Part shown: positions 7,530 to 62,565 of the stretch, piece after piece
Numbering within the stretch: the stretch's first letter is position 1
Layout: each line of letters begins with the position of its first letter
Source: Mesorhizobium sp.
GTDB taxonomy: Bacteria; Pseudomonadota; Alphaproteobacteria; Rhizobiales; Rhizobiaceae
Direction of reading: 5' to 3'
Assembly (NCBI GenBank): GCA_004020875.1
Contig: SAPZ01000016.1
Span: 78,338-142,337, forward strand
Length of the DNA stretch: 64,000 bases
Translations under genes and position numbers: made by a program
Notes under the pieces: model-generated
Told to the model about the DNA's origin: nothing
The model's input: the letters and a program-made list of their open reading frames with translations, nothing else
Databases searched by the model: none

Positions 7530-7538
7530 AGAACGGCA

Positions 7539-42998: not shown

Positions 42999-43139
42999 CT
43001 CCTGCCCTTTCATTCAGCTGATTACGCCGAAGGATAGCCCGTGAAGCGATGCTTCACGAGTCTTTCAAAGGCTCATAGCGGAAAAAGGCAGCAAAAGCAG
43101 CCGATTTTTGACCGCATGGTCAAAACGGAATGGCGTGCC

Positions 43140-43967
43140 TCAGCCGACGAAGGCGCGCTCGACGACGAAGCTTGCCGGATTGCTCAAGGAGCCTTCCTGG
43201 AAGCCGAGGCTTTCGGCGAGTTCCTTGACGTCCTTAAGCATATGCATCGAGCCGCAGATCATGATGCGGTCGGTCTCGGGATTGAGCTTCTCGATCCCGA
43301 GGTCGGAATAGAACTTGCCCGAGCCGATCAGCGCGGTGATGCGGCCCATGCGCGCCGACTCCTCGCGGGTCGTCGAATTGTAGAGCGTGACGCGGCCGGC
43401 GGTCAGCTCGCCGATCAGAGGATCGCTTTCGAGCGCCGCCACCAGTTCCTGGCCGTAAGTGAGCTCGGCAATGTCGCGGCAGGTGTGGGTGAGGATCACC
43501 TGGTCGAACTTCTCATAGGTGTCGGGATCGCGCAGCAGGCTGGCGAAGGGCGCGATGCCGGTGCCGGTCGAGATCATGAACACACGCTTGGCGGGCGTCA
43601 GCGCGTCGAGCACCAGCGTGCCGGTCGCCTTCTGGCGCATGATGACGGTGTCGCCGACCTGGATCTTCTGCAGCTCGGAGGTCAGCGGGCCGTCCGGCAC
43701 CTTGATAGAGAAGAATTCCAGCTCGTCGTCCCAGGCGGGGCTGGCGACCGAATAAGCGCGGAAGATCGGCTTCTCGGCATTGGGCAGGCCGATCATGACG
43801 AACTCGCCGGAGCGGAAGCGCAGCGACTGCGGGCGGGTGATGCGGAAGGAGAACAGCCGGTCGGTGTAATGCTTCACCGACACCACAGTCTCGGCGTAGA
43901 CATTGGCCGGGATCGGGAACTGCAGCGGCCTTGCGCCGGCGGTGTTCAACGCGGATGTCGTGTTCAT
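43140..43967 (-). CDS. fpr: Ferredoxin/flavodoxin-NADP reductase
   Basis: FAD enzyme of 275 residues moving electrons between NADPH and ferredoxin or flavodoxin. RAYSVASPAWDD is the FAD-binding RxYS motif, ISTGTGIAPFASLLRD the NADP pyrophosphate loop, ILTHTCRDIAELTYGQEL the ribose-binding part, and the chain ends in the short family tail FVVERAFVG. ATG 43967 is used, since the 14-residue extension to 44009 has no support. It is divergent from hyuA, with a MarR-type operator candidate between. It is usually a housekeeping gene, but here it could supply reduced ferredoxin to the reductase at 49988-51529. Confidence 0.93.
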   Translation of the reverse strand: MNTTSALNTAGARPLQFPIPANVYAETVVSVKHYTDRLFSFRITRPQSLRFRSGEFVMIGLPNAEKPIFRAYSVASPAWDDELEFFSIKVPDGPLTSELQKIQVGDTVIMRQKATGTLVLDALTPAKRVFMISTGTGIAPFASLLRDPDTYEKFDQVILTHTCRDIAELTYGQELVAALESDPLIGELTAGRVTLYNSTTREESARMGRITALIGSGKFYSDLGIEKLNPETDRIMICGSMHMLKDVKELAESLGFQEGSLSNPASFVVERAFVG

Positions 43968-44089
43968 CAAACCCAACTTTCCGGCCCAGACGCGAGGCCC
44001 TGGCGCCAAATTGCTCCCTGCGCCTCCGAACGTCGGTTCCGACGCGCTTACCGCACACTGCCAACAGTAGGCCCTTGTGTTGGAAAGTT

Positions 44090-44106
44090 ATTAGTATACA
44101 AACGAT
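44090..44106. promoter_or_regulatory. Candidate MarR operator, site 1
   Basis: ATTAGTATACAAACGAT has the palindromic core TTnGTATACnAA. The same 17-base frame with four changes is at 55265-55281 before the hydroxylase operon. It lies 79 bases upstream of the hyuA ATG used here, or 46 from the earlier ATG at 44152. Confidence 0.55.
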
Positions 44107-44184
44107 CTTGCGGTCAAGATCGAGGCGTAAAACGCGTTTCCAAACTAGGACATGTCCGTAGTTTTAGCATTTCGGGTTTCGACA

Positions 44185-46257
44185 ATGGATGAGAAATTTT
44201 CGGCGTCGGCGGGAAATGTTGTCGCAGGCATCGATGTCGGCGGGACCTTCACCGACCTGCTCCTGATCGACGGCAAGGCGGGTGGCAAGGTCCATATCGC
44301 CAAGACACCGACCACGGTGGAAAACCAGGCCTTCGGCGTGGTCGCCGCGCTCGGCGCGACCGGCTTTCCGATCGGCGGCATCGACCTCATCGTGCACGGC
44401 ACGACGACCACCACCAACGCCGTGCTGGAACGCCGCCTGGCGCGGACCGGCATGATCACCACGCGCGGCTTTCGCGATGTGATCGAGCTTGGCCGCCGCA
44501 CAAGGCCGCAGGCCTATGGCATGACCGGCACTTTTGTCCCTGTCATCCCCCGGGACCTACGGCTCGAAGTGTCGGAAAGGGTCGAGGCTTCGGGCACGGT
44601 GCGCATTCCCCTCGACGAAACCGAGATGCGCGATGCGGTGAAGAAGCTGCTCGACGCCGGCTGCGAATCCCTCGTCATCCATTTCCTGCATTCCTATGCC
44701 AACCCGTCGCATGAGCGGCGCGCCGCCGAGATCGCTGCGGAGCTCTGGCCGAACGGGCACGTCACCACCGGACATGCGCTGCTTTCGGAAGCGCGCGAGT
44801 TCGAACGCGGCGTGACGGCGGCGGTCAACGCCTCGGTGCAGCCGATCCTCGAGCGCTATGTCGAGCGGCTGCGCAAGGAGCTTGGCGCGAAAGGCTACGC
44901 GCGCGACTTCCTGATCATGAACGGTAATGGCGGCATGATCTCGGCCCGCTTCGTCACGTTGGAATCGGCAAAGACGGTGATGTCCGGCCCGGCCTCCGGC
45001 GTCATCGCTGCCGCCTATACGGGCAAGCGTGCAGGCTTCGGCAACCTCGTCACCTACGACATGGGAGGCACTTCGACCGATGTGGCGCTGATCCGCAACG
45101 CCGAGCCGGCCGTCTCCAACGAGATCGAGATCGAATATGCGATGCCGATCCATGTGCCAATGGTGGCCGTGCATACGGTCGGCGCCGGCGGCGGCTCGAT
45201 AGCGCGCGTCGATGCGGCCGGGCTGATCCAGATCGGCCCGGAAAGCGCCGGCGCCAATCCAGGCCCGATCTGCTACGGGCGCGGCGGCGAGGAGCCGACC
45301 ATCACCGACGCCAATCTGGTGCTCGGACGCCTTGCGCCGAAAAAGCTGCTCGCGGTTGACAACCCGGTCACCGTCGAGCGCGTCACCGGCATTTTCGAGG
45401 ACAAGATCGGCAAGCGCACCGGCCTCTCCGGCGTCGAAGCGGCGGGCGCTGTGCTCAGGCTCGGCAACATGAAGATGGCCGGCGCGATCCGCATGGTCTC
45501 GGTCTCGCGTGGCCACGACCCACGCGATTTCGCGCTGTTCGCCTTTGGCGGCGCCGGGCCGCTGCACGCGACGGCACTTGCCCGCGAACTCGGCCTACCC
45601 AGAGTGTTGGTGCCGGCGCGCCCGGGCATCACCAACGCGCTCGGCTGCGTCGTCGCGGACCTGCGCCACGACTTCGTCAACACAATCAATCAGCCCGTCA
45701 AGCTACTCGACGAAGCTGCCCTTCGTGAGGTGCTGGAACGGCATCGTAACGAAGGCGAGGCGCTGATCGCCAAGGAAGCGGTGAAGCCGGACGCGATCCG
45801 CGTCACGCATTCCGCCGACATGCAGTTCGTCGGCCAGACGCATATCATCAACGTGCCGCTGCCCTCCTCTTCGGTTTCACGAGAAACGCTGCAGCTTCTG
45901 TTCGAAAAAGCCTATTTCGCTCGCTTCAAGGTCGAGCTGCCGGAAATCCGCGCCAACCTCGTCAACCTCAACACCTCGGTCACCGGCGTGCGGCCGCAGA
46001 TCGACCTGTCGCGGCTGATCGACCCCGCGGGCCGCGCGGCGGCGCTTGACGAGGCGCGGCGCGAGATCCGGCCGGTCTGGTATCACGGCACCTGGCACGA
46101 CACGCCAGTCTATGCCCGCGAAAAGCTGCCGCTCGACGCCGTGATCGAAGGGCCGGCGATCCTGGAACAGATGGACGCCACCACGGTGCTCGAACCCGGC
46201 GACCGGGCGCGCTCGGACGCGGACGGCAACATCATCATCGACATCGGCGAGGCTTGA
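44185..46257 (+). CDS. Hydantoinase/oxoprolinase A-type subunit
   Basis: Protein of 690 residues from ATG 44185 (44152 is an alternative adding 11 residues). It belongs to the HyuA/acetone carboxylase beta family: ATP-binding ASKHA fold with VVAGIDVGGTFTDLLLIDG at the N-terminus, HGTTTTTNAVLERR, NGNGGMISA, TYDMGGTSTDVALI and AHTVGAGGGSIA-like VHTVGAGGGSIARVDAAG. With HyuB such subunits hydrolyse cyclic amides at the cost of ATP. The partner gene starts one base after its stop. In this neighbourhood the lactam could be a reduced 6-oxonicotinate, which is inference. It is the first gene of a rightward pair. Confidence 0.92.
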   Translation: MDEKFSASAGNVVAGIDVGGTFTDLLLIDGKAGGKVHIAKTPTTVENQAFGVVAALGATGFPIGGIDLIVHGTTTTTNAVLERRLARTGMITTRGFRDVIELGRRTRPQAYGMTGTFVPVIPRDLRLEVSERVEASGTVRIPLDETEMRDAVKKLLDAGCESLVIHFLHSYANPSHERRAAEIAAELWPNGHVTTGHALLSEAREFERGVTAAVNASVQPILERYVERLRKELGAKGYARDFLIMNGNGGMISARFVTLESAKTVMSGPASGVIAAAYTGKRAGFGNLVTYDMGGTSTDVALIRNAEPAVSNEIEIEYAMPIHVPMVAVHTVGAGGGSIARVDAAGLIQIGPESAGANPGPICYGRGGEEPTITDANLVLGRLAPKKLLAVDNPVTVERVTGIFEDKIGKRTGLSGVEAAGAVLRLGNMKMAGAIRMVSVSRGHDPRDFALFAFGGAGPLHATALARELGLPRVLVPARPGITNALGCVVADLRHDFVNTINQPVKLLDEAALREVLERHRNEGEALIAKEAVKPDAIRVTHSADMQFVGQTHIINVPLPSSSVSRETLQLLFEKAYFARFKVELPEIRANLVNLNTSVTGVRPQIDLSRLIDPAGRAAALDEARREIRPVWYHGTWHDTPVYAREKLPLDAVIEGPAILEQMDATTVLEPGDRARSDADGNIIIDIGEA

Positions 46258-46258
46258 G

Positions 46259-47947
46259 ATGGCAAAGCTCGACACGATCACGCTTTCGGTATTGCAGGCC
46301 GCCTTGCAGCAGGTCTGCGACGAGATGGACCTGACCTTCTCCCGCGCCGCCTTCTCGCCGGTCATCGCCGAAGCCAATGACCGCTCGGACGGCATCTACT
46401 CGGCCGTCGACGGCTCGCTGATCGCGCAAGGCAGCCAGGGCCTGCCGGTGTTCGTCGGCGTCATGCAATATTCGACCAGGACGGTGATCGAGATGATCGC
46501 CGATGGCCGCTGCCTCGCGCCGGAACAAGGCGACATCTACATCGTCAATGACCCCTATCTCGGCGGCACGCATCTGATGGACGTTCGCTTCGTCATGCCG
46601 GTCTATCGGGACGGCAAGATCTTTTGCTGGCTGTCCAACACCGGACATTGGCCGGATATCGGCGGCTCGGTGCCGGGCGGGTTCTCGGCGTCGGCTACCG
46701 CAGTCGAGCAGGAAGGGCTGCGGCTGCCGCCGGTGAAACTGTTCAAGAAGGGCGTGCTCGATCCCGAGATCTACGCCATCATCTGCTCGAACATCCGCGT
46801 TGCCGACCAGCGGATCGGCGACATCCGCGCGCAGGCGGCGGCGCTGCTGATCGGCCAGGACAGGCTCAATGAAATCCTGGATCGTTACGGTGACGAAACC
46901 GTCATTGAGGCGATTGCGGAACTGCGGCGCCGTGCCGCCGAGCAGATGCGCGCCTCGATCGCCGCCATACCGGACGGTGTCTATCGCTCGCAGGCCTTCG
47001 TCGATTCCGACGGGGTGGTGAACGAGCCGCTGACCATCAATCTCGCCGTCGAGAAGAAGGGCGATACGCTGACCTTCGATTTCTCCGGCTCGTCGAAACC
47101 CTGCGCCGGGCCGATGAACAGCGTGCTGGCGACGACCCTGTCGTCCGTCTACCTCGCGATGCGCCATATTTTTCCGGAGGTGCCAATCAGCGCCGGCGCC
47201 TTCGAACCGCTGATCGTCAAGCGGCCGGAGGGCACTTTCCTCGACGCCAAATACCCGCGCCCGGTGTCGGGCTGCGCGGCGGAGGTGTCGCAGCGCATCG
47301 CGGAAGCCGTGTTCGCGGGTATGGTGCAGGCATTGCCCGAAAAGGTGACGGCGGCGCCCGCCGGCTCCAGCGGCAATTTCGCGCTCGGCGGCAACGATCC
47401 GGCGCGTGGCCGCGACTATGTCATGTACCAGATCTCCGGCGGCGGTTATGGCGGCAATGCCGGCCATGACGGCTTGAGCAATGGCTGCTCGACCATCGGC
47501 ATTTCGAAGTCGCCACCGGTCGAGATCATGGAGCAGGCCTTTCCGGTGCTCTACCGCCACTATGCGCTGCGCGAGGGCTCGGGGGGCGCCGGCAAACATC
47601 GCGGCGGCTTCGGGCTTGCTTACGAGGTCGAGATCTTGCGCGGCGAGGCGCGCGCGTCCTTCGTGATGGATCACGGCCGCTTCGGCCCGCAGGGCGCGCT
47701 CGGCGGCAAGGATGGCATGCCGAACAGCGTGACCGTGTTCCGGGGCGGCGAAGCGCATGTACCGCCGCATCTGTCCAAGGAGCAGGACATCGCGCTCAAG
47801 GCCGGTGATCGCGTGCGCGTCGGCACGCCCGGCGGCGGCGGCTATGGCGATCCCGCAGAGCGTGACGCGCGGTTGGTCGCGGAGGATGTCAGGCTTGGGT
47901 ACTATACGGCAGAGCAGGCCAAGGAGATGTTTGGGGTGGATTTGTAG
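46259..47947 (+). CDS. Hydantoinase/oxoprolinase B-type subunit
   Basis: HyuB-family protein of 562 residues. Family segments seen in order: ALQQVCDEMDLTFSRAAFSP near the N-terminus, GDIYIVNDPYLGGTHLMDVR (metal-ligand region), FCWLSNTGHWPDIGGSVPGG, and the glycine-rich C-terminal GSGGAGKHRGGFGL and VGTPGGGGYGDP. It forms the catalytic complex with the A subunit encoded one base upstream. Length is typical. The gene ends before a perfect hairpin that separates it from the converging MarR gene. Confidence 0.92.
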   Translation: MAKLDTITLSVLQAALQQVCDEMDLTFSRAAFSPVIAEANDRSDGIYSAVDGSLIAQGSQGLPVFVGVMQYSTRTVIEMIADGRCLAPEQGDIYIVNDPYLGGTHLMDVRFVMPVYRDGKIFCWLSNTGHWPDIGGSVPGGFSASATAVEQEGLRLPPVKLFKKGVLDPEIYAIICSNIRVADQRIGDIRAQAAALLIGQDRLNEILDRYGDETVIEAIAELRRRAAEQMRASIAAIPDGVYRSQAFVDSDGVVNEPLTINLAVEKKGDTLTFDFSGSSKPCAGPMNSVLATTLSSVYLAMRHIFPEVPISAGAFEPLIVKRPEGTFLDAKYPRPVSGCAAEVSQRIAEAVFAGMVQALPEKVTAAPAGSSGNFALGGNDPARGRDYVMYQISGGGYGGNAGHDGLSNGCSTIGISKSPPVEIMEQAFPVLYRHYALREGSGGAGKHRGGFGLAYEVEILRGEARASFVMDHGRFGPQGALGGKDGMPNSVTVFRGGEAHVPPHLSKEQDIALKAGDRVRVGTPGGGGYGDPAERDARLVAEDVRLGYYTAEQAKEMFGVDL

Positions 47948-47996
47948 GGGACTGACGTGGGGAATAGGCCAAATACCTAGGTCGAGCTCCCGCCAA

Positions 47997-48027
47997 CCCC
48001 CCTCTGCCCTGCCGGGCAGAGGGGGTG
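47997..48027. terminator. Short family-A palindrome acting as hairpin
   Basis: CCCCCTCTGCCC and GGGCAGAGGGGG form a perfect 12-bp stem with loop TGCC between two converging genes. The sequence equals one outer end of the family A repeat joined to the other, with the 130-base core missing, so it looks like a deletion derivative that may work as a two-way terminator. Confidence 0.7.
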
Positions 48028-48068
48028 CTGTCCCGCCAGCGTCTATCACTCTGTCGAAAGCAATCCTT

Positions 48069-48530
48069 CTAAGCCAGCTTAGCCAGCAGCCGCAAAAACG
48101 TCGCGGCTTCCTTGGTGGTGAGCGGCGCCAGCGTTTCCTCGGTGATGGCTCGCGCCAGAGGGATCAGCCGCTCGATCGCCTCGCGGCCTTCCGACGTCAG
48201 ATTGACCAGCAGCCGCCTCTTGTCGACTTCGTGCTTGGAGACCTCGACCAGGCCACGCGCCTTCAGCCGGTCGATGACGCCTTTCACGGTGGCGGCGTCC
48301 ATCGCGATCAGCGTTCCGAGCTGATTCTGCGAGGTTTCGCCGATGTCGTAGAGCTTGGCCAAAGCGGCGAATTGCGGCGGCGTCAGGTCGCCGATTTGCG
48401 AAGCGAAGATCGAGACATGGCGCTGATGCGCCTTGCGCAGGATGAAGCCGACCTGATCCTGCAGATGGTAGTTGTTCTCGTCGCCGTCTTCGGCCTCGAC
48501 CAGGCGCAGCAGATTGTCCTCGCCGCTCAT
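48069..48530 (-). CDS. MarR-family regulator
   Basis: Winged-helix regulator of 153 residues. DQVGFILRKAHQRHVSIFAS is the dimerisation helix, LTPPQFAALAKLYD and TSQNQLGTLIAMDAATVKGVIDRL the helix-turn-helix with recognition helix, and HEVDKRRLLVNLTSEGREA the wing. It is the last gene of the hydroxylase operon and its ATG overlaps the upstream stop (ATGA), so the operon makes its own regulator. MarR proteins bind TTnGTATACnAA-like palindromes; such elements are at 44090 and 55265. The ligand is probably an aromatic or N-heterocyclic acid. Confidence 0.92.
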   Translation of the reverse strand: MSGEDNLLRLVEAEDGDENNYHLQDQVGFILRKAHQRHVSIFASQIGDLTPPQFAALAKLYDIGETSQNQLGTLIAMDAATVKGVIDRLKARGLVEVSKHEVDKRRLLVNLTSEGREAIERLIPLARAITEETLAPLTTKEAATFLRLLAKLA

Positions 48531-49111
48531 CTGAGGCCATCCCATGCCTTGATGTCTTCCGCCGCCAGCCCGCCCATGCGGTTGTGGACGCGCGGACCGC
48601 AGGTCATGGCGAGGCAGAACAGGACCTCGTCGGGGCGCGGGCCGTCGCTGATGCCGACCTCCATGGCGTCGAAATGGCTGCGCACATAGGCGGCGTTGAT
48701 GTGGCCGAGCGGCACGTCGAGCCTTGAGCCGAAAGCGCCGACCTTCTTGGCCGACGGCACGATGGCCTTAGCATCGCCGAGCCGCTCGCGCATGGCGTAC
48801 CCGCCCGGCACATGCCAGAGCGCGCCGTGCTCCAACTCGCCGGCGGTGCCAACGATGGCGCCCTTGCCGTAGCCGTCGATCTTTTTCACATCGCCGCCGA
48901 GCGCCGCGATCAGCCTGTCGGAGAGCAGGAGACCCAGCGGCTTCAGATCTTCCATCGCACCCTGCAAATCCTCTACGTAACGACCCGCGAACGGGTTCTT
49001 GACCACGGCAAGAGCTGCGGCACGCAGGCGCGGTTGCTTGGCCATGGGGCCGCCATCGTGGAAAATCTCCTCGGTCAGCACCGCGACCTTGCGGATCGGA
49101 AACTCAGGCAT
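48527..49111 (-). CDS. AA_synth-family protein (DUF1185)
   Basis: Protein of 194 residues of the family labelled amino acid synthesis, for which no reaction is established. Recognisable stretches are IRKVAVLTEEIFHDGGP at the N-terminus, AALAVVKNPFAGRYVEDL, KGAIVGTAGELEHGALWH and VPLGHINAAYVRSHFDAMEV. No signal peptide. The ATG at 49111 has GGGAGGAA seven bases upstream and overlaps the preceding gene by 8 bases. Members often sit beside UPF0280 genes and heterocycle-degradation enzymes, as here. It might act on the ring-opened product; I cannot say more. Confidence 0.85.
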   Translation of the reverse strand: MPEFPIRKVAVLTEEIFHDGGPMAKQPRLRAAALAVVKNPFAGRYVEDLQGAMEDLKPLGLLLSDRLIAALGGDVKKIDGYGKGAIVGTAGELEHGALWHVPGGYAMRERLGDAKAIVPSAKKVGAFGSRLDVPLGHINAAYVRSHFDAMEVGISDGPRPDEVLFCLAMTCGPRVHNRMGGLAAEDIKAWDGLR

Positions 49112-49991
49112 GGGCAAATTCCTCCCTTTCATGCTTGTTGGGCGCGGCGAGCGCTATCGCGCCGCTGACGCGGGCTTCGCCCGCCAGAAACAACGCCGAG
49201 GCGACGATCAGGCCGCGCCGGCGAAAATCTTCGGCGACGGCGAGGCCCTTGTCCAGCGCCTGGGCAATATCGCCTGGCGCGAGCGCACCGACGCTCTGCG
49301 TCACCAGGCGATCGCCGAGATCGCTGTCAGGCGCCAGATCGCGCGCCGAAGCTCGTGCGATGGCCGGATGTCCAGGCAGGTCAACGGCGTTGGCAATCAG
49401 CGTCGCCGCCGCGTCGGCTTCCGCGCCGGTGCGCGCAAGAACGGTGACGGCATCGGCTATCCCTAAGGAAAACGACCGGCCACGCCAGCCGCTGGTGGCG
49501 ACGCCGCGCACGCCATCCTCGGCGCAAACGGTGACGCGATCGGCCATGCCATTCCCGGTGCCGGCGATCGCCACCGTCATCGACTGGCCAACGCCAAGAT
49601 GCAGAGCGCAGTCGCCGCCATTGTTGACGTAGGCCCGTTCGAGCCGGCGACCGGAAAGCAGAGCATCGAGAATTTCGTCGGCTACCGAACCGGCAACGGC
49701 GGCCATCGGCGTGATGAAGCATTCCGCCAATGGCATGACGGCCGCTTCCATGCGGCGCGCCGTTGGGCCGGCAAAATCGCGCGGCGCCAGGAAGAAGGCG
49801 GGCAAGCGCAATTCGGGCAGTTCCTCGACCACCTCGATCAGGATCGTCTGAAAACGGGTGACCGCCTGCTCGTAAGCGGCGCGGCATTCATCGGGCTCGC
49901 CAAAGGTCTCGACGATCAGATCGATCGGCCCGTGATTGAGATGGAGCCGCCGGCCGTCGGCAAGCCAATGCGCCTGCGGGCCGTTCATCAC
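49104..49991 (-). CDS. UPF0280-family (ApbE-like) protein
   Basis: Protein of 295 residues of the UPF0280 family, distantly related to the FMN transferase ApbE. AYVNNGGDCALHLGVGQSM is the strongest family segment; SVADEILDALLSGRRLE and GVATSGWRGRSFSLGIADAV follow, the last resembling the ApbE threonine/serine region. It might attach flavin to a protein partner such as the reductase encoded upstream, but this is speculation. Overlap with the reductase stop by ATGA shows coupling. Function not established in the family. Confidence 0.82.
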   Translation of the reverse strand: MMNGPQAHWLADGRRLHLNHGPIDLIVETFGEPDECRAAYEQAVTRFQTILIEVVEELPELRLPAFFLAPRDFAGPTARRMEAAVMPLAECFITPMAAVAGSVADEILDALLSGRRLERAYVNNGGDCALHLGVGQSMTVAIAGTGNGMADRVTVCAEDGVRGVATSGWRGRSFSLGIADAVTVLARTGAEADAAATLIANAVDLPGHPAIARASARDLAPDSDLGDRLVTQSVGALAPGDIAQALDKGLAVAEDFRRRGLIVASALFLAGEARVSGAIALAAPNKHEREEFAHA

Positions 49992-55163: not shown

Positions 55164-55264
55164 GCTCTGCCTTCCAGAACCTTCCCAGAAACGGACCATT
55201 CCCACTTGGCCCTCCCAAAGCACTTGGCTTCGGGCTTTCTGCCGGTTTCACACCGTTCAAATTC

Positions 55265-55281
55265 ATTCGTATGCAAATGAT
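55265..55281. promoter_or_regulatory. Candidate MarR operator, site 2
   Basis: ATTCGTATGCAAATGAT lies about 100 bases upstream of the FAD-subunit GTG in the 310-base divergent gap before pncA. It matches site 1 at 13 of 17 positions with the same centre. The rest of this gap (55164-55473) shows a GAGGGAAG ribosome site near 55460 and nothing else I recognise. Confidence 0.55.
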
Positions 55282-55473
55282 ATCAGGCGGACTGGAATTG
55301 TCAAAGCAAGACTTCGTGCCGCTGGGGCGGCGTGCCGGCCTGAACGCATTGCTGTGGCCTTGGAGGTTGACGCCGCCGGCCATCTGGTCAAGGCTCCGTG
55401 TCCGGTCGCGTCAGCGGCTTTTGGACTGGAGCCCCAAGCCGAAACGAAGGGGCCCAAACGAGAGGGAAGCCGC

Positions 55474-56088
55474 ATGGCCGACGAAGCGCTCATCGTCATC
55501 GACCTGCAGAACGATTTTTGTCCAGGCGGCGCGCTGGCAGTTGCCGGCGGCGACGAGATCGTGCCTTTGGTCAACGACCTGATCCGGCGGACAGATCATG
55601 TGATCCTGACGCAGGACTGGCACCCGGCCGGCCATTCGAGCTTCGCCTCCAGCCATCCGGGCAAACTGCCCTTCGAAACCATCGAGATGCCCTATGGGTC
55701 GCAGACCTTGTGGCCGGACCATTGCATCCAGGGCAGCCTCGGTTCCGATTTCCATTCCGGGTTGGCATGGACCAAGGCCGAACTGGTGATCCGCAAAGGG
55801 TTTCGCACAGCGATCGACTCCTATTCGGCGTTCTTCGAGAACGACCACACGACGCAGACCGGCCTTGGCGGCTACCTCAAGGAACGCGACATCGACACGA
55901 TCACGCTGGTTGGGCTGGCCACCGATTTCTGTGTGGCCTTCTCGGCGCTCGACGCGGTGAAGCATGGTTTCAAAACGACCGTGCGGCTCGACGCCTGCCG
56001 CGGCATCGACCTCGCCGGCTCGGTCGAGGCCATGCTGCAGCGCATGCGCGAAGCCGGCGTGACGCTCGAAGATCACTCGGCGGATTGA
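55474..56088 (+). CDS. pncA: Nicotinamidase
   Basis: Cysteine hydrolase of 204 residues that converts nicotinamide to nicotinate and ammonia. Catalytic Asp10 in ALIVIDLQNDFCPGGALAV, metal-binding DWHPAGHSSFAS, WPDHCIQGSLGSDFH, the Lys in LVIRKGFR and nucleophile Cys in VGLATDFCVAFSALDAV are all seen. ATG 55474 follows AGAGGGAAGCCGC. PncA serves NAD salvage in most bacteria, but its place divergent from a molybdenum hydroxylase and a 6-hydroxynicotinate reductase-like gene suggests it also feeds nicotinate to that pathway. Confidence 0.95.
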   Translation: MADEALIVIDLQNDFCPGGALAVAGGDEIVPLVNDLIRRTDHVILTQDWHPAGHSSFASSHPGKLPFETIEMPYGSQTLWPDHCIQGSLGSDFHSGLAWTKAELVIRKGFRTAIDSYSAFFENDHTTQTGLGGYLKERDIDTITLVGLATDFCVAFSALDAVKHGFKTTVRLDACRGIDLAGSVEAMLQRMREAGVTLEDHSAD

Positions 56089-56095
56089 CGCCCCG

Positions 56096-57544
56096 GTGAG
56101 GCAGCGAGGGGGCTTCACGACATTCGCGAAAGTGCTGGCGGCAGGCATGGCTGCCGCACTCGTTCTTGGTTGTCCGGTATCGGCCTTTGCTGCCGAAATT
56201 CACGAACTGCCCGGCGCCGCGATGTCGCTCTGGTGGGGACTGCCCTTTGCCGGCCTGCTGCTGTCGATCGCGACCGGACCGCTGCTCTTTCATCACGTTT
56301 GGGAACATCATTACGGCAAGATCGCCGCCGGCTGGGCGGCGCTGGCGGTCGTCCCGCTGGCAGTCGCCTTCGGCATTCCGACGGCAGGCGAAGCGGTGCT
56401 GCACACGCTGCTGACCGAATACATGTCCTTCATCATCCTGCTGTTCGCGCTCTACACAATCTCGGGCGGCATCCTGCTTGCCGGCAACATCCATGGTACC
56501 CCCCTCGTCAATGCCGGCCTGCTTTCGATCGGCGCCTTGCTTGCCTCGATCATCGGCACGACCGGCGCCTCAATGATCCTGATCCGGCCGATGCTGCGCG
56601 CCAACGACAACCGGCCGTTCAACGCGCATGTGGTGATCTTCTTCATCTTCCTGGTCTCCAACATCGGCGGCTCGCTGACGCCGCTCGGCGACCCGCCTCT
56701 GTTCGTCGGCTTCCTGCGCGGCGTCGATTTCTTCTGGACGACGGTGCACATCCTGCCCGACACGCTCTTCGTCGGCGGCCTGGTGTTGGCTGTCTTTCTC
56801 GCGATCGACATCATCCTGCACCGCCGTGAGGCTGGCATGCCCAAGATCAAGGATCCGACACCCGACACAAAGGTGCGCCTGCGCGGGCTGGCCAACCTGC
56901 CGCTGCTCGCCGGCGTGATCGGCGCGATCCTGCTTTCGGCGAGTTGGAGGCCGGGAATCGGGGTTTCGGTGCTGGGTGTCGGACTCGAGCTGCAGAACCT
57001 GGTGCGCGACGCCTTCATCCTGGCGCTGGCCTTCTTGTCCCTGAAAGTCTCGTACAAGAGCCACAGGCAAGCGAACGGCTTCACCTGGGGGCCGATCGCC
57101 GAGGTGGCGAATTTGTTTGTCGGCATCTTCATCTGCATCGTGCCTGTCATCGCCATCCTGCGAGCCGGCCATGACGGCGCGCTGGCGCCGCTGGTGGCAT
57201 TGGTCACATCCGCCGACGGCCAGCCCAACGATCTCGCCTATTTCTGGCTGACCGGGGCGCTGTCTTCCTTCCTCGACAATGCGCCGACATATCTGGTGTT
57301 CTTCGAGCTCGCCGGTGGTGATGCGCGGCATCTCATGACGGAGGCCGCCTCGACGCTTGCGGCGATCTCGGCCGGGGCGGTTTTCATGGGCGCCAACACC
57401 TATATCGGCAACGCGCCGAACTTCATGGTCTTCGCCATTGCCAGGCACCGTGGCTTCAAGATGCCGGGCTTCTTCGGTTACATGGCGTGGTCGGGCCTGG
57501 TGCTGATCCCGGCCTTTTTGATTGCCGGCTTTTTGTTTTTTTAG
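56096..57544 (+). CDS. Sodium:proton antiporter/anion permease-like membrane protein
   Basis: Membrane protein of 482 residues with an apparent cleavable signal (LVLGCPVSAFAAE) and about twelve hydrophobic segments. Sequences such as FFIFLVSNIGGSLTPLGDPP, LTGALSSFLDNAPTYLVFFE and GANTYIGNAPNFMVFAIA are the paired motifs of the citrate/Na+:H+ (NhaD-like, ion transporter superfamily) group. It could be a cation antiporter or a carboxylate carrier. The start is GTG 56096, seven bases after the pncA stop, with a weak ribosome site; ATG 56147 is possible but would shorten the signal. Likely co-transcribed with pncA. Confidence 0.88.
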   Translation: MRQRGGFTTFAKVLAAGMAAALVLGCPVSAFAAEIHELPGAAMSLWWGLPFAGLLLSIATGPLLFHHVWEHHYGKIAAGWAALAVVPLAVAFGIPTAGEAVLHTLLTEYMSFIILLFALYTISGGILLAGNIHGTPLVNAGLLSIGALLASIIGTTGASMILIRPMLRANDNRPFNAHVVIFFIFLVSNIGGSLTPLGDPPLFVGFLRGVDFFWTTVHILPDTLFVGGLVLAVFLAIDIILHRREAGMPKIKDPTPDTKVRLRGLANLPLLAGVIGAILLSASWRPGIGVSVLGVGLELQNLVRDAFILALAFLSLKVSYKSHRQANGFTWGPIAEVANLFVGIFICIVPVIAILRAGHDGALAPLVALVTSADGQPNDLAYFWLTGALSSFLDNAPTYLVFFELAGGDARHLMTEAASTLAAISAGAVFMGANTYIGNAPNFMVFAIARHRGFKMPGFFGYMAWSGLVLIPAFLIAGFLFF

Positions 57545-57563
57545 CTGAAGCGGTGCAGAGCGT

Positions 57564-57660
57564 TACCTCCCCTTGTGGGGAGGTCGGACCGAAGGTCCGG
57601 GTGGGGGTCGGCGCCGCCCCTCCCCGCTGCTTCGCTGCGACCCTCCCAACAAAGGGGTAA
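57564..57660. repeat. Palindromic intergenic repeat, family C
   Basis: ACCTCCCC-TTGT-GGGGAGGT is followed by CGGACC-GAA-GGTCCG and a right arm ending AAAGGGGTAA that pairs with the starting TTACC. It sits between the converging antiporter and ABC ATPase genes and could end both transcripts. Confidence 0.75.
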
Positions 57661-57663
57661 TCC

Positions 57664-58392
57664 TCAGCCTACCCCCACATAGCGCCGCACCGCGGATGGG
57701 TCGGCGCGCAATGCCTCGACATCGATCGTCTCGCGGTTGCGGCCGTTCTCGATGAACGAGACGCGGTCGGCGACCGACAGCACGGCGTCAACGCGCTGCT
57801 CGACCAGAATGGTCGAGACGCCAAGCTCGCGCAGCTTCGCCACCGTCTCGCGGATCCTGGCGATCATCGACGGCATCAGGCCCTCGGTCGGCTCGTCCAG
57901 CAACAGCACCTGCGGTTCGAGGCAGAGCGCGCGGGCCATGGCCAGCATCTGCTGCTCGCCACCGGAGAGCGTGCCGGATCGCTGCTTCAGCCGCTCGCGC
58001 AGCAGCGGGAAGAGATCGAGCACGTTCTCGCGCGTCTGCCTGCCCTTGCGGCGCGCCATCAGGCCCATCTCGATGTTCTCCGCCACCGTCATCTCGGCAA
58101 ACAGGCGCCTGCCCTGCGGCACATAGGCGACGCCGGCCTTGGGTACATCATGCGCGGCGAGCCCGGTCAGTTCCTTGCTGTCAAGCCTGATCGAGCCGGC
58201 CGCCGCAGGCACCAGCCCCATGATCGCCTTCAGCGTCGTCGTCTTGCCGGCGCCGTTGCGGCCGAACAGGCACAGCACCTCGCCCTTGTTGAGGACGAGG
58301 TCGAGGCCATACAGCACCTGGACCTCGCCATAGAAGCAGTCAAGGCCGGCAATGGTGAGCAATTCGTCATCGGTTCTAATGGCGTCAGCCAT
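57664..58392 (-). CDS. ABC transporter ATP-binding protein (LivF type)
   Basis: ATPase of 242 residues of the branched-chain amino-acid/amide ABC class. Walker A GRNGAGKTTTLKAIMG, signature LSGGEQQMLAMARAL, Walker B VLLLDEPTEGL and VEQRVDAVLSVADRV. The phrase GLDCFYGEVQVLYGLDL is typical for LivF. ATG 58392 overlaps the LivG-type stop by eight bases. Last gene of a leftward cluster of five (binding protein, two permeases, two ATPases). The distal end of the operon is next to the pncA-antiporter unit. Confidence 0.94.
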   Translation of the reverse strand: MADAIRTDDELLTIAGLDCFYGEVQVLYGLDLVLNKGEVLCLFGRNGAGKTTTLKAIMGLVPAAAGSIRLDSKELTGLAAHDVPKAGVAYVPQGRRLFAEMTVAENIEMGLMARRKGRQTRENVLDLFPLLRERLKQRSGTLSGGEQQMLAMARALCLEPQVLLLDEPTEGLMPSMIARIRETVAKLRELGVSTILVEQRVDAVLSVADRVSFIENGRNRETIDVEALRADPSAVRRYVGVG

Positions 58393-59113
58393 GGGTCGCC
58401 CCGAGATAGGCATCCTGCACCTCGGTATTGGCGCGGATCTCACCCGGCGTGCCCTCGGCGAGGATCTTTCCCGAATTGAAAACGGTGATGCGATCGGCGA
58501 GTCCCATGACGACCGGCATATTGTGCTCGATCAGAAGAACCGTCGCGTCCTTGGCGATCCCGCGCACCAGCGTGATGAAATTGTCGATCTCGCTATCGGC
58601 CAGCCCCTGTGTGGGCTCATCTAGGATCAGCAGGCGCGGCTTCAGCGCCAGGCCCATCGCCACTTCGAGCAGGCGCTGATGGCCGTAGGAAAGATGCGCG
58701 GCCAGCGTGGCGGCGCGGTCGGCAAGCCCGGTGCGCTCCAGCGCCGCCATGACGCCGGTCCTGACCTGTCCCTTGGTGCGGCCGTCCGTCAGCGTGCGCT
58801 GCACCGGCAGCGCGACATTGTCGAAGACCGTGAGGTTGGCGAAGACGCTGGTGATCTGGAACGTGTAGGCGACGCCGAGCCTGACCCTTTGGTAGGCCGG
58901 CATGCCCGTGATGTCGACCCCGTTGAAGACAACGACACCCGACGATGGCCGGATGCGGCCGCTGAGCAGACTGACGAAAGTCGTCTTACCGGCGCCGTTG
59001 GGGCCGATCACGGCGCGGATCTCGCCCGGCATCAGCGCGAAGTCGACGCCGTCGACGGCGCGCAGGCCGCCGAACTGGCGCGAAAGGCCCTTGGTGGTGA
59101 GCAGCGGCGTCAT
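58385..59113 (-). CDS. ABC transporter ATP-binding protein (LivG type)
   Basis: ATPase of 242 residues. Walker A GPNGAGKTTFVSLLSG near residues 38-53, Q-loop VAYTFQITSVFANLTVFDN, signature LSYGHQRLLEVAMGLALKPR and Walker B LLILDEPTQGLADSE; LLIEHNMPVVMGLADR carries the switch His and the LivG-specific C-terminal AYLGA segment. It uses ATG 59113, overlapping the permease stop as ATGA; ATG 59122 is an alternative three codons longer. It pairs with the LivF-type ATPase. Confidence 0.94.
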   Translation of the reverse strand: MTPLLTTKGLSRQFGGLRAVDGVDFALMPGEIRAVIGPNGAGKTTFVSLLSGRIRPSSGVVVFNGVDITGMPAYQRVRLGVAYTFQITSVFANLTVFDNVALPVQRTLTDGRTKGQVRTGVMAALERTGLADRAATLAAHLSYGHQRLLEVAMGLALKPRLLILDEPTQGLADSEIDNFITLVRGIAKDATVLLIEHNMPVVMGLADRITVFNSGKILAEGTPGEIRANTEVQDAYLGATHG

Positions 59114-60072
59114 GGCAGCCATCCCAACCAGCGCTCGCGGATGCTGCCCATAATACCTTTCGGTGCAAACAGGACGAGCAGGATGAGCGCCACGCCGACG
59201 ATCAGGAGATAGGCCGAGGTGAAGCCGCTGGTTATGTCGGTGACATAATACATGAACAGGGTGCCGATGAGCGGTCCGAGCGTGGTCGCAGCGCCCCCCA
59301 GCAGCACCCAGAGCAGCGGCAGGATCGAATATTGGATCGATGCGAAATTCGATCCGACATAGCCGAACAGCAGCGCATAGGCGGCGCCGGATGCCGCGCA
59401 GATGGCGCCGGAGGTGATGACAGCGATGAGCTTGCTCGTCACGGTGTCATAGCCAAGCATCTTTGTCCGTTCCTCGTTCTCGCGAATGGCGACCAGCACT
59501 CGGCCAAAGCGGGAGCGGACGATGGCCAAAGTGATAAGCAGCACGACCGAGAACAGCGCCAGCGCGCCCATGTAGCGCACCGTCGGGTTGGTCAGGTCGA
59601 GCGAGACGCCGCCGATCGCGATCGCCCTCGATGCCTGCTGGATGACAAGGCCCTGGTCGCCGCCGGTCCAGGCGGCGAAATAGAGGATGAGCAGATAGAA
59701 GACCTGGGCGAACATCATGGTGACGATCATGAACGCCACGCCCGAGGTGCGGAGCGCCAGCAGGCCGATGGCAAGAGCGAGCAGCGCGCCGGAAACGATG
59801 CCGGCCAGGAAAGCTTCCGGCACGCCCCAGCCGAGGTGGTAGACGGTCAAGCCCGCGCCATAGAGGCCGGCCGAGAAGAACATGGCGTGACCGAGGCTGA
59901 GCAGGCCGACATAGCCGAACAGCAGATTGTAGCCCATGGCGAAGACGGCAAGCGCCATGATGCGGGCAAACAGGCCCTGGTGATAATCCGGCAGAACGAA
60001 GTTCAACGCGAACAGAAGCGCGATGACCACGATGTGCAGGGCATAAGTCTTTGCCGGCGAAGCATCCCTCAT
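59110..60072 (-). CDS. ABC transporter permease (LivM type)
   Basis: Permease of 320 residues with about nine or ten hydrophobic segments. LARIMALAVFAMGYNLLFGYVGLLSLGHAMFF is the family N-terminal region (split here by helices), and the cytoplasmic loop SRFGRVLVAIRENEERTKMLGYD contacts the ATPases. A long in-frame extension upstream lies inside the LivH-type gene and is rejected; ATG 60072 overlaps that gene's stop as ATGA. Chain ends in LFAPKGIMGSIRERWLGWLP. Confidence 0.93.
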   Translation of the reverse strand: MRDASPAKTYALHIVVIALLFALNFVLPDYHQGLFARIMALAVFAMGYNLLFGYVGLLSLGHAMFFSAGLYGAGLTVYHLGWGVPEAFLAGIVSGALLALAIGLLALRTSGVAFMIVTMMFAQVFYLLILYFAAWTGGDQGLVIQQASRAIAIGGVSLDLTNPTVRYMGALALFSVVLLITLAIVRSRFGRVLVAIRENEERTKMLGYDTVTSKLIAVITSGAICAASGAAYALLFGYVGSNFASIQYSILPLLWVLLGGAATTLGPLIGTLFMYYVTDITSGFTSAYLLIVGVALILLVLFAPKGIMGSIRERWLGWLP

Positions 60073-60950
60073 CGCGGCGCGGTTCCGAACAGGCCCTGCG
60101 GCCGGAACACCAGCACCATGGCGACAACCAGCGTGGCGATGATCTTGGCGAGCGTCGGCGAGAAGAACATCGAGATGATGCCGTCGGAGAGGCCGATCAG
60201 GACGGCCGCGACCACGGTGCCGCGGAGCGAGCCGAGGCCGCCGATGATGACCACGATGAAGGAGAGCAGCAGCGGGTCCTGTCCCATCAGATAATGCGCC
60301 TGGCTGATCGGCACGATCAGAACCGCGGCGATCGCGGCCAGCATGGCGCCTATGGCGAAGACCCCGGCATAGACGCGCTCGACCGGAATGCCGAAGGCCT
60401 GCGCCGTCTCGCGATCGTATTGGGTGGCGCGCATGATCAGTCCGATCTTGGTGCGCGTCAGCACCAGCCAGGTGATCAAGAGCAGGATGGCGGAAGCGGC
60501 AACCACCGACAGCTTGTAGCCGGAATAGCCGAACCACGGCAGAAGGATGCGATAGCTGAAGGGCGGCTCAACCGGGCGCGCCTCCGGCCCGTAAAAGGTG
60601 AGCGCCAGTTGTTGGATGATGTAGAGCATGCCGATGGTGGCGACGATGGTGCTTTCGGGGTTGTAGTTCAGCCGCCGCAGCACCAGCCACTCGGCGAGAA
60701 ACGCGACCAGCCCGACGAGCAGGGGCGCGATCACAAGTGCTGTGGCAAAGCCGATGGCCGGATGGCCGGAAATCGCCGTCGAGATCGCCCAGGCGAGCAC
60801 CGCGCCCAGCATGAAGAACTCGCCATGGGCGACATTGACGATGCGCATGACGCCGAACACCAGCGACAGGCCGAGCGCCGTCAGCGCCAGCACGGCGGAG
60901 GTGACCAGGCCTTCGAGGGCGGCGAGGAGAAGATGGGGGCCGAAATGCAT
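60069..60950 (-). CDS. ABC transporter permease (LivH type)
   Basis: Permease of 293 residues. SAVLALTALGLSLVFGVMRIVNVAHGEFFMLG is the typical LivH beginning (residues 18-50), MRATQYDRETAQAFGIPVER the cytoplasmic loop, and GGLGSLRGTVVAAVLIGL a conserved late segment. VFRPQGLFGTAPR ends the chain. It heads the coupled four-gene block of permeases and ATPases; a family A repeat separates it from the binding-protein gene upstream. Substrate class: amino acids, amides or aromatic acids. Confidence 0.94.
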   Translation of the reverse strand: MHFGPHLLLAALEGLVTSAVLALTALGLSLVFGVMRIVNVAHGEFFMLGAVLAWAISTAISGHPAIGFATALVIAPLLVGLVAFLAEWLVLRRLNYNPESTIVATIGMLYIIQQLALTFYGPEARPVEPPFSYRILLPWFGYSGYKLSVVAASAILLLITWLVLTRTKIGLIMRATQYDRETAQAFGIPVERVYAGVFAIGAMLAAIAAVLIVPISQAHYLMGQDPLLLSFIVVIIGGLGSLRGTVVAAVLIGLSDGIISMFFSPTLAKIIATLVVAMVLVFRPQGLFGTAPR

Positions 60951-60970
60951 TGGCTAGGCACCGAGGGATG

Positions 60971-61143
60971 CGCGAGGCACCCGCCTCTGCCCTGCCGGGC
61001 ATCTCCCCCGCAAGGGGGGAGATTGGAGGTCATCGCAGGCTTCGCAAATCGCCAACGTCGCCAGATAGGCGCCGGCGCGCGAACTGCTGATCTCCCCCCT
61101 TGCGGGGGAGATGGCCGGCAGGCCAGAGGGGGGTGCCTTGGCG
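60971..61143. repeat. Palindromic intergenic repeat, family A, copy 4
   Basis: Left end CCTGCCGGGCATCTCCCCC, right end the near reverse complement CATGG-free GGGGGAGATGGCCGGCAGG. Core CTTCGCAAATCGCCAACG is in the orientation of copy 3. It lies within the transporter operon between the binding protein stop and the LivH-type start, so the mRNA would carry a long hairpin that may set relative expression. Confidence 0.85.
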
Positions 61144-61168
61144 TTCACCTTTGCAGGAGCAGCTAAAC

Positions 61169-62473
61169 TCACAGCGCCTGCGTCGTGTAATCCCCTTCCG
61201 GCTCGTAGAGGCCGTCCTCGATCTTGGTCTTGTGGACGACCTTGAGCTTGCCGCCTTCGACCTTGGAGATGTTCTGGATGCCGAAACACTGGTGGATCTT
61301 GCCGTTGAAGGTTTTCGGCCCCTGCGGATGCTCCGGCCCTTCTGCGAATTCCTTCAGCGCCTCGGTCGCCTCGACCAGCTTGGCGCGGTCTTCGGGTCCC
61401 TTGTAGCCGGCATCTTCCATCGCCTTCTTGACGACATAGAGCGTTTCCCAGCAGCCGAACATGTGCGAGGCGGTGGAAATGTCCTTGGGATCGCCGACCG
61501 CGGCGCCGTTGTCGTCGATGCCGACGGCGGCGCGGTAGGCTTTCTGCGCGGCGGAATCGTCGGGCTGCGCGTAGCGGGGCGAGCCTTCCCAGAAATGGCT
61601 GCCGTCGAGGAACTCGAGGCCGGGGCTGTTGATGTCGACGGCTTCTAGCGAATCCATGAAGCCGAAGAGCTGCGGCCGCTGCGAGCCGTAGAACTCGCCG
61701 AGCTCCTTGACGAAGGTGAGCACCGCAGGGCCGACCATGACGTGGTAGATCACCTCGGTCTCGGCCGGGATCTGCGGGAAGTATTTGGTGAAGGAGCTCT
61801 CCGTCGGCGGGATGGCGATCTGCGCGATGACGTTGGCGCCTTGCGCCTTCAGCGCCGGCGGCAGGTAGTCGCGATGATCGTAGCCGAAGGCGAAGTCGGG
61901 GAAGATCTGCGTCACCTTCTTGCCGGCGTTCGCCGCGATCCACGGCGCCATGGACTGGATCTGGCTCTTCACGTCGGTGATGCCGGGCTGGAAGACGTAG
62001 CGGTTGAGCTTGGTGGAGGCGACGTGGTGGCCTTCGCTGACCACGAAATAGGGGATCTTGTTCTCGCCGGCGGCGGGCGCGGAGCCGATCACCACATGCG
62101 AGAACAAGGTGCCGAAGACGATGTCGGTCTTGTGCTGCTTGGCGAATTTGTTGACCACCTCGGCGCCGCGCGCCGGGTCGGTGCCGTCATCCTCGATCAC
62201 CAGCTCGACCTTGCGGCCGTTGATGCCGCCGGCGTCGTTGATCGCCTTGACGGCGGCAGCACTCGTCTTCTCGTACCAGCGGCCATAAGCGGCGCCGATG
62301 CCGGTGCGGTGCGACTGGAAACCAATCTTGATCGGTGCCGAGCTCTGCGCTTGGCTGTAGCGCACGAAACCGGGCGCCAGCGCAAGGCCGGCGCCAGCGG
62401 CCATGCCTTTCAACGCCGTGCGGCGCGAAAGCGATTTTTTGGAGAGGTCGAAGAATCCGTTCTTGTCAGCCAT
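61169..62473 (-). CDS. ABC transporter substrate-binding protein (LIV/amide type)
   Basis: Periplasmic binding protein of 434 residues. A twin-arginine-type signal (SLSRRTALKGMAAGAGLALA) is followed by IKIGFQSHRTGIGAAYGRWYE, the ligand-binding opening of this family; VKAINDAGGINGRKVELVIEDD and FPDFAFGYDHRDYLPPALKA are characteristic. Tat export is unusual enough to note for this class but occurs. It supplies the permease and ATPase genes downstream. Ligand unknown; given the surroundings it may be nicotinate, another pyridine or a related amide. A short hairpin and a weak operator-like element precede it. Confidence 0.93.
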   Translation of the reverse strand: MADKNGFFDLSKKSLSRRTALKGMAAGAGLALAPGFVRYSQAQSSAPIKIGFQSHRTGIGAAYGRWYEKTSAAAVKAINDAGGINGRKVELVIEDDGTDPARGAEVVNKFAKQHKTDIVFGTLFSHVVIGSAPAAGENKIPYFVVSEGHHVASTKLNRYVFQPGITDVKSQIQSMAPWIAANAGKKVTQIFPDFAFGYDHRDYLPPALKAQGANVIAQIAIPPTESSFTKYFPQIPAETEVIYHVMVGPAVLTFVKELGEFYGSQRPQLFGFMDSLEAVDINSPGLEFLDGSHFWEGSPRYAQPDDSAAQKAYRAAVGIDDNGAAVGDPKDISTASHMFGCWETLYVVKKAMEDAGYKGPEDRAKLVEATEALKEFAEGPEHPQGPKTFNGKIHQCFGIQNISKVEGGKLKVVHKTKIEDGLYEPEGDYTTQAL

Positions 62474-62522: not shown

Positions 62523-62565
62523 ATCCCCGTTTTGGGGATTGGAAAATTGCATGTGTACAAACTAA
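62523..62565 (-). promoter_or_regulatory. Upstream region of the transporter operon: hairpin and weak operator-like site
   Basis: ATCCCC-GTTTT-GGGGAT (62523-62539) forms a small hairpin in the leader. GCATGTGTACAAACTAA (62549-62565) matches the MarR candidate site 1 at 10 of 17 positions, with an exact GTnTACAAAC half. If real it would add the transporter to the same regulon; the match is modest. Confidence 0.35.

Follow-up and report, generated by a model that had tools for sequence, protein, structure and literature searches.

A candidate regulon for reductive breakdown of nicotinamide and nicotinate in Mesorhizobium, with HyuAB as its putative ring-opening enzyme

INTRODUCTION

How is the reduced ring of nicotinate opened in bacteria that have a 6-hydroxynicotinate reductase (HNR) and no enamidase? 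This question is raised by a locus at positions 43,140 to 62,473 of a 64,000-nucleotide stretch of Mesorhizobium sp. DNA (hereafter the window, positions 78338 to 142337 of contig C13 of a 6.66-Mb genome; coordinates are those of the window). Here, genes for an HNR homologue, a molybdenum hydroxylase, and a nicotinamidase lie together with genes for HyuAB, a two-subunit enzyme of the hydantoinase type. In Eubacterium barkeri, a bifunctional enamidase opens the reduced ring and deaminates the product to 2-formylglutarate (PMC9304392). HNR clusters were recognized in Azorhizobium and Bradyrhizobiaceae through similarity to E. barkeri, the HNR of Bradyrhizobiaceae strain SG-6C being 42% identical to the E. 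barkeri protein, and SG-6C, whose cluster is related, can degrade both nicotinate and 6-hydroxynicotinate (PMC3511419). An initial annotation of the window had proposed a complete nicotinate degradation locus in which ring opening by HyuAB and the roles of the UPF0280 and AA_synth proteins would be new. The cluster as such had already been recognized (PMC3511419); for UPF0280 and AA_synth, testable roles can be proposed.

Sequence comparison points to HyuAB as the probable ring-opener of the reductive nicotinate pathway, in place of enamidase, and we put the probability of this reading at about 0.7. The reading is based on two observations: HyuAB and enamidase nearly exclude each other among HNR genomes, and the HyuA promoter shares its operator with the promoter of the hydroxylase and nicotinamidase genes.

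RESULTS

HyuB and enamidase were compared in 297 genomes from the host's order, 74 with HNR and 223 without. HyuB orthologues were called at ≥69% identity to the query, above a natural gap reaching down to ≤60%, and enamidase at ≥63%, above a natural gap reaching down to ≤45%. Genomes with HyuB at 55 to 60% identity (G189, G131, G245, G064, G159, and G038) were excluded from the strong set because two of the six lack HNR and because no other cluster gene adjoins HyuAB at the five of their loci that were fetched (L229 to L231, L242, and L243); one of these, L242, carries a second, weaker HyuB. Strong HyuB was found in 30 of the 74 HNR genomes compared to 1 of the 223 HNR-less ones, and strong enamidase in 42 compared to 6. 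The sole HNR-less genome with strong HyuB, G185, is an assembly of 240 contigs that is 93% complete and also has UPF0280. Among the HNR genomes, 27 carried HyuB without enamidase, 39 carried enamidase without HyuB, 3 had the two together, and 5 had neither (Fisher P = 5e-12). In HNR loci, the alternative ring-opener is truly homologous to enamidase (2vun, E = 2.3e-109), and no such protein was found in the window genome, where the only amidohydrolase matches were weak (best E = 9.9e-6, over 54 residues). Of the marks of the reductive nicotinate pathway, the locus has the HNR homologue and the adjacent molybdenum hydroxylase and lacks the enamidase.

In other families, the genes for HyuA, HyuB, the flavin adenine dinucleotide (FAD) and molybdenum (Mo) subunits of the hydroxylase, HNR, MarR, UPF0280, and AA_synth lie side by side, for instance at L085. 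In a phylum-wide sample, HNR was present in 32 of 398 genomes, and among the 13 of their loci that were newly fetched, HyuA lies near HNR in L217, L218, L219, L223, and L227 and enamidase in L216, L224, L225, L226, and L228. Stand-alone modules of enamidase, AA_synth paralogue 1, and AA_synth paralogue 2, with no HNR nearby and no operator at the 99.9% level defined below, were also seen (L244 to L246 and L237 to L240); the neighbors of one of them (L245) are a PanE/ApbA-like reductase, an isochorismatase, and a nucleoside hydrolase. These modules would be another feeder into the same chemistry.

A 17-bp operator, ATTMGTATRCAAAYGAT, is common to the FNR/HyuA promoter region (FNR, ferredoxin/flavodoxin-NADP reductase) and the FAD subunit/nicotinamidase promoter region. 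At ≤3 mismatches, two sites were found in the window compared to 0.17 expected, and at ≤2 mismatches, exactly two in the 6.66-Mb genome, both at this locus, with none for the reversed control. Five genomes of the Mesorhizobium group have HyuAB ∼72 or ∼97 kb away from HNR or on a different contig, and the FNR/HyuA operator is kept in these distant loci (L232 to L236) with 0 or 1 mismatch. A palindromic matrix was built from 66 Mesorhizobium-group sites, 24 of them distinct, and tested on 125 other loci, which include at least three contigs twice (L047/L161, L053/L164, and L165/L219); its 99.9% and 99% thresholds were set on reversed sequence. In the window, the next best place outside the three operator sites (Table 1) scores 1.3.

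Some trends were apparent in the upstream windows of the tested loci. First, at the 99.9% level, the operator was found for 44 of 72 FAD subunit genes, 16 of 29 HyuA, 11 of 26 enamidase, 11 of 23 FNR, 11 of 28 periplasmic binding protein, 26 of 70 MarR, 22 of 108 HNR, and 1 of 10 nicotinamidase genes. Second, none of the 471 genes that are usually operon internal passed this level (UPF0280, 0/101; AA_synth 1, 0/81; AA_synth 2, 0/46; Mo subunit, 0/74; HyuB, 0/25; LivF, 0/79; LivH, 0/65). Third, at the 99% level, real windows exceeded reversed ones both for enamidase (13 versus 2 of 26) and for HyuA (16 versus 1 of 29). Finally, enamidase genes in HNR loci carried the operator at the 99.9% level in 11 of 19 cases compared to 0 of 7 for stand-alone copies (P = 0.01), which include those of the three genomes with both ring-openers (L237 to L239); one stand-alone gene, L244, passes the 99% level. 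Depending on the set of genomes, the operator thus marks either HyuA or enamidase, which is what equivalent functions of the two would predict. We infer that the MarR protein binds this palindrome and controls all the units.

HyuAB has the features of an ATP-dependent lactamase. The best solved relative of HyuB is the caprolactamase subunit CapB (6yra_B, E = 1.3e-76), whose metal ligands D41, H99, D102, and H124 align with D41, H105, D108, and H130 of HyuB. Among solved structures, HyuA is closest to an N-methylhydantoinase (7hk5, E = 1.2e-124) and then to CapA, and its ATP motifs are DVGGTFTD at residue 28, DMGGTSTD at 303, and GANPGP at 367. The pair therefore shows both Pfam subunits, the DxGGTxTD, DxGGT, and GxxPGP motifs (as defined in PMC8453981), and the D-H-D-H metal tetrad of the family. 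For this family, the proposed mechanism is that ATP activates the lactim and that the ring is hydrolyzed by the metal subunit (PMC8453981). The relative OplAB uses ATP in opening the six-membered ring of δ-valerolactam (PMC11033972).

The HNR protein is 62 to 70% identical to plasmid-borne proteins annotated as 6-hydroxynicotinate reductase in public records, and the assignment is based on identity to these relatives and on their annotation. Among the best 80 of 588 matches, the closest named records are from Mesorhizobium (≤97% identity), and all appear to be alphaproteobacterial except one Acidobacteriaceae metagenome-assembled genome. No Pfam family matched the protein at E = 0.001, its predicted structure (mean predicted local distance difference test score [pLDDT], 74.8) had no match in the PDB at E ≤ 0.001, and no convincing flavin target motif was seen when the alignment was inspected by eye. 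A relationship to DUF39, which COG2122 accompanies elsewhere, was considered and rejected, there being no Pfam or PDB sequence match to it; the only Pfam match was GCV_T_C at E = 0.008. Homologues are plasmid borne in 26 records, including 12 from Sulfitobacter and 4 from Rhizobium, which suggests that the pathway may move between bacteria. At L217 (G310), HNR matches as two adjacent pieces and the gene may be split. The HNR locus L066 (positions 4931 to 9039) has another type of hydroxylase, with a large Mo subunit carrying cytochrome c domains and a small 2Fe-2S subunit, and pairs of this kind cluster in several other loci.

UPF0280 accompanies HNR closely: 71 of the 74 HNR genomes have it, compared to 1 of the 223 HNR-less ones (G185), and in the three exceptions (G120, G183, and G224) either HNR lies at a contig end or the assembly is fragmented. 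We propose, from its modeled structure (mean pLDDT, 90.8), that UPF0280 may be an ApbE-type enzyme that attaches the HNR flavin covalently. The first Foldseek match was 2o34, and 30 of the 32 rows at E ≤ 0.001 were ApbE, FmnB, or Ftp flavin transferases (E = 2e-5 to 1e-3), as are all matches beyond 2o34, although template modeling (TM) scores are only 0.33 to 0.52. When UPF0280 was aligned by profile with the ApbE proteins of relatives (a protein was obtained from 7 of the 14 loci used), the ATSG and ADxxxT segments paired (E = 6e-4, with a probability of only 28%), and D193 and T197 of the ADxxxT segment are invariant in 26 of 26 sequences. This segment is metal binding in ApbE. The HNR of E. 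barkeri was reported by Alhapel (2006) to carry a covalent flavin. The fold matches, the paired segments, and the covalent flavin of the E. barkeri enzyme speak for a flavin transferase and against a helper of iron-sulfur or persulfide chemistry for HNR, an alternative that nonetheless falls only a little short of an even chance. The ApbE HxxDP loop has no partner in UPF0280, where the profile alignment has a gap, and no Pfam ApbE match was obtained. A helper would also suit the eight invariant cysteines of HNR, and homocysteine synthesis needs COG2122, the family of UPF0280, along with DUF39 and NIL/ferredoxin proteins; the homology of COG2122 reportedly stops short of the ApbE flavin-binding region, and a persulfide role has been mentioned (PMC5764234). 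A literature search, which lacked most subscription journals, found no paper naming UPF0280, either alone or with nicotinate.

AA_synth (DUF1185) proteins were provisionally grouped by identity to the window protein into paralogue 1 (≥57%) and paralogue 2 (44 to 50%); four matches at 53 to 54% (G171, G035, G270, and G194) and all those at ≤43% were excluded. The family has a chorismate-mutase-like fold (PMC2954203), and solved relatives of the window protein are 3byq and 2qtp. A second AA_synth in the same genome (L248, contig C28) is 40% identical to it. Paralogue 2 follows enamidase, occurring in 41 of 42 enamidase-bearing HNR genomes compared to 2 of 32 others (P = 3e-17) and often adjoining the enamidase gene; in independent contrasts, six of seven went the same way and none the opposite (median P = 0.03; range, 0.03 to 0.06). 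Paralogue 1 was found in 29 of 30 HyuB genomes compared to 25 of 44 others. A role as a partner of HyuAB only was ruled out, as paralogue 1 is also present in 27 of the 42 enamidase genomes. No AA_synth was found at E = 1e-30 in five HNR genomes (G032, G064, G120, G159, and G245).

Our best guess is that AA_synth acts on the ring-opened product, either as a formyl-acid decarboxylase or as an enamine hydrolase, because a formyl-dicarboxylate is expected from ring opening and has to be decarboxylated. TgnF, a DUF1185 homologue from trigonelline breakdown, reportedly stimulates the oxidation of succinate semialdehyde, in line with a role later than ring opening, and attempts to see such stimulation with another homologue, HcdD, failed (PMC7913881). 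That AA_synth is not a decarboxylase but an enamine hydrolase or a noncatalytic partner of the ring-opener is a lesser possibility that we take seriously: it would fit the fold and the tracking of enamidase by paralogue 2, and the product of HyuAB would require an enamine hydrolase. The E. barkeri enamidase, however, also releases ammonia (PMC9304392), which leaves paralogue 2 no such job there. Nine loci, which come from a single genus (g23), have a class III coenzyme A (CoA)-transferase near HNR-HyuAB. At L090 it is nearest to succinate–glutarate CoA-transferase, far under the cut-off (224.5 of 750 bits). Its presence would agree with glutarate being formed later in the pathway.

Genes were called from Pfam matches, NCBIfam equivalog cut-offs, and third-position guanine-cytosine (GC) content of the frames (Table 1). 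Those named in the initial annotation are all where it had placed them, with family matches, and third-position GC is of the coding type in every named gene, the exception being the overlong LivM frame. On the minus strand, the genes from the FAD subunit through the fused 2Fe-2S/Mo subunit, HNR, UPF0280, and AA_synth to MarR overlap end to end, and nicotinamidase and the CitMHS_2 carrier are divergent from this unit. FNR and HyuAB point away from one another, and the LIV-type importer forms a separate unit. Two enzymes were not placed by equivalog models: the FNR-like protein is under every NCBIfam cut-off (best NF008178, 138.6 bits of 390), and the molybdenum hydroxylase is far under every one. 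DeoC (deoxyribose-phosphate aldolase; 41952 to 43013) adjoins FNR-HyuAB even where that block sits apart from HNR (L232 to L234). At 62629 to 63900, a 423-residue protein with long hydrophobic stretches had no Pfam match; relatives with 43 to 51% identity are encoded close to the importer at several HNR loci.

TABLE 1 Genes and operator sites of the locus, in window coordinates
Feature	Position	Strand	Evidence and remarks
FNR-like ferredoxin/flavodoxin-NADP reductase	43140..44009	-	FAD_binding_6 and NAD_binding_1; candidate electron donor for HNR
Operator 1, FNR/HyuA intergenic	44087..44106		ATTMGTATRCAAAYGAT with 0 mismatches; matrix score 30.3
HyuA, ATP-binding subunit of putative lactamase	44152..46257	+	Hydantoinase_A/N/C; Hydantoinase_A E = 1.3e-88
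HyuB, metal subunit of putative lactamase	46259..47947	+	Hydantoinase_B, E = 2e-158
MarR-family regulator	48069..48545	-	PF01047, E = 1.7e-12
AA_synth (DUF1185), paralogue 1	48527..49132	-	PF06684, E = 8.7e-70; 234.2 bits, cut-off 27
UPF0280 (COG2122)	49104..49991	-	NF003322, 390.7 bits, cut-off 290; ApbE-like fold
HNR homologue, 513 residues	49988..51529	-	8 invariant Cys across 33 aligned sequences
Molybdenum hydroxylase, fused 2Fe-2S/Mo subunit, 927 residues	51526..54309	-	MoCoBD_1, MoCoBD_2, Fer2, Fer2_2
Molybdenum hydroxylase, FAD subunit	54306..55223	-	FAD_binding_5, CO_deh_flav_C
Operator 2, FAD subunit/nicotinamidase intergenic	55262..55281		ATTMGTATRCAAAYGAT with 0 mismatches; matrix score 33.7
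Nicotinamidase	55354..56088	+	NF008623, 216.5 bits, cut-off 174
CitMHS_2 carrier	56096..57544	+	PF16980, E = 1.6e-188; not mentioned in the initial annotation
LivF-type ATPase, importer	57664..58443	-	Family match
LivG-type ATPase, importer	58385..59122	-	Family match
LivM-type permease	59110..60096	-	Start uncertain, listed frame reaches 60537; BPD_transp_2 in its residues 190 to 455
LivH-type permease, importer	60069..60950	-	Family match
Periplasmic binding protein, importer	61169..62473	-	Peripla_BP_6
Operator 3 (weaker), upstream of binding protein	62546..62565		Matrix score 11.6

DISCUSSION

Ring opening by HyuAB has gained strong support from its near-exclusion with enamidase and from an operator that is shared with the hydroxylase/nicotinamidase promoter and occurs nowhere else in the genome. 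Several observations weigh against it. First, three HNR genomes carry both HyuB and enamidase, and five carry neither. Two of the latter are fragmented (G032, 770 contigs; G246, 480 contigs), and the other three (G064, G159, and G245) are 96 to 97% complete and also without AA_synth. Second, the Fisher tests ignore the kinship of the genomes. The HNR tree covers 61 of the 74 HNR genomes and shows only 5 changes for HyuB and 8 for enamidase; across seven independent enamidase contrasts, HyuB went the opposite way in 3.4 on average, showed no difference in 3.6, and went the same way in 0 (median P = 0.25), so that the direction is right and the number too small for significance. Third, the operator is missing at the 99.9% level for 13 of 29 HyuA and 15 of 26 enamidase genes. 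Several of these HyuA genes follow importer genes (for example, at L165, L167, and L183) and may be operon internal. Finally, HyuAB scores far under the caprolactamase cut-offs NF050156 and NF050157 (498 and 317.9 of 1,000 bits), which means that it is another branch whose substrate is not fixed by family. The HNR loci of G245, G159, and G064 (L079, L080, and L082, respectively) are without strong HyuB, enamidase, or AA_synth.

HyuAB might instead be an ordinary hydantoinase or 5-oxoprolinase that merely sits beside the cluster, the ring being opened by AA_synth or an unrecognized hydrolase. The closeness of HyuA to N-methylhydantoinase and the several Mesorhizobium-group genomes in which FNR-HyuAB lies with DeoC, apart from HNR, would accord with this. 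It is improbable all the same, since a bystander would hardly be missing, as close HyuB is, from 222 of the 223 HNR-less genomes, share the operator of the hydroxylase/nicotinamidase promoter, directly adjoin FAD-Mo-HNR in other families such as at L085, and be near-exclusive with enamidase among HNR genomes. That the whole locus degrades another pyridine acid, with HNR and HyuAB acting on a relative of 6-hydroxynicotinate, would suit the low equivalog scores of the hydroxylase and is improbable as well in view of the operator-bearing promoter common to the hydroxylase and the nicotinamidase equivalog, the annotation of HNR in related records, and the degradation of nicotinate and 6-hydroxynicotinate by SG-6C with its related cluster (PMC3511419).

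Taking HyuAB as the ring-opener, we propose that the locus is one regulon for reductive breakdown of nicotinamide and nicotinate, every substrate and reaction in it being one that we infer. Nicotinamidase would convert nicotinamide to nicotinate, and the molybdenum hydroxylase would convert nicotinate to 6-hydroxynicotinate. HNR, with electrons arriving via the FNR-like protein, would reduce this to the lactam 1,4,5,6-tetrahydro-6-oxonicotinate. HyuA would then use ATP to activate the lactam, whose ring amide would be hydrolyzed by the metal subunit, HyuB. The pair would thereby replace the ATP-free enamidase. The product, 2-(aminomethylene)glutarate, would pass to 2-formylglutarate and, with loss of CO2, to glutarate semialdehyde, AA_synth catalyzing one of the last steps after ring opening. 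UPF0280 would attach the HNR flavin covalently, and the MarR protein would control all units through the common palindromic operator. The order from nicotinamide through tetrahydro-6-oxonicotinate to ring opening, as first suggested, fits the gene content. The word "complete" was too strong: the window was not found to encode the route that leads from 2-formylglutarate into central metabolism.

A bolder reading assigns three new roles jointly to an aerobic branch, and we regard the combination as unlikely. HyuAB would be an ATP-dependent enamide lactamase of a pyridine pathway that displaced enamidase several times. UPF0280 would be a flavin transferase and dedicated cytosolic HNR maturase, its COG2122 relatives modifying redox partners of homocysteine synthesis. 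The DUF1185 proteins would be decarboxylases that act on formyl-dicarboxylates, on 2-formylglutarate here and on 2-formylsuccinate in trigonelline breakdown, with one paralogue per ring-opener.

Enamidase-less HNR bacteria (32 of 74 genomes) are otherwise without a known ring-opener, and 27 of these have HyuAB. The cluster also offers a defined pathway in which to assay UPF0280/COG2122 and DUF1185, families without an assigned reaction. If true, the use of an ATP-dependent lactamase on a reduced pyridone would extend what is known of the range of the superfamily, with possible use against N-heterocycle pollutants; SG-6C degrades 6-chloronicotinate by a related route (PMC3511419).

The locus can be compared to several known systems. 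The reductive nicotinate cluster of Azorhizobium caulinodans and Bradyrhizobiaceae strain SG-6C has the hydroxylase and HNR core in common with it; here, HyuAB replaces enamidase, and FNR, nicotinamidase, and a CitMHS_2 carrier are added (PMC3511419). A hydantoinase is not mentioned in the accessible parts of that paper, and no literature linking 6-hydroxynicotinic acid with a hydantoinase was found in a search that lacked most subscription journals. The UPF0280/COG2122 protein of homocysteine synthesis (PMC5764234; 2o34) is of the same family and fold and is also the partner of an iron-sulfur redox protein, whereas the partner here is HNR, in a catabolic operon, and Pfam searches found no DUF39 relative. 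TgnF likewise places a DUF1185 protein in a pathway for a nicotinate derivative that ends in a semialdehyde (PMC7913881), with a different substrate, and is likened to AA_synth by family. The nicotinate fermentation of E. barkeri likewise uses HNR for reduction to the tetrahydro-oxo lactam but opens the ring without ATP by its bifunctional enamidase (PMC9304392), an enzyme absent from this genome. The 2-formylglutarate of the fermentation is reduced. Caprolactamase CapAB (6YRA, PMC8453981) and the oxoprolinase OplAB (PMC11033972) have the same two subunits, ATP motifs, and metal ligands as HyuAB, whose candidate substrate differs from theirs in being an enamide with a carboxyl group.

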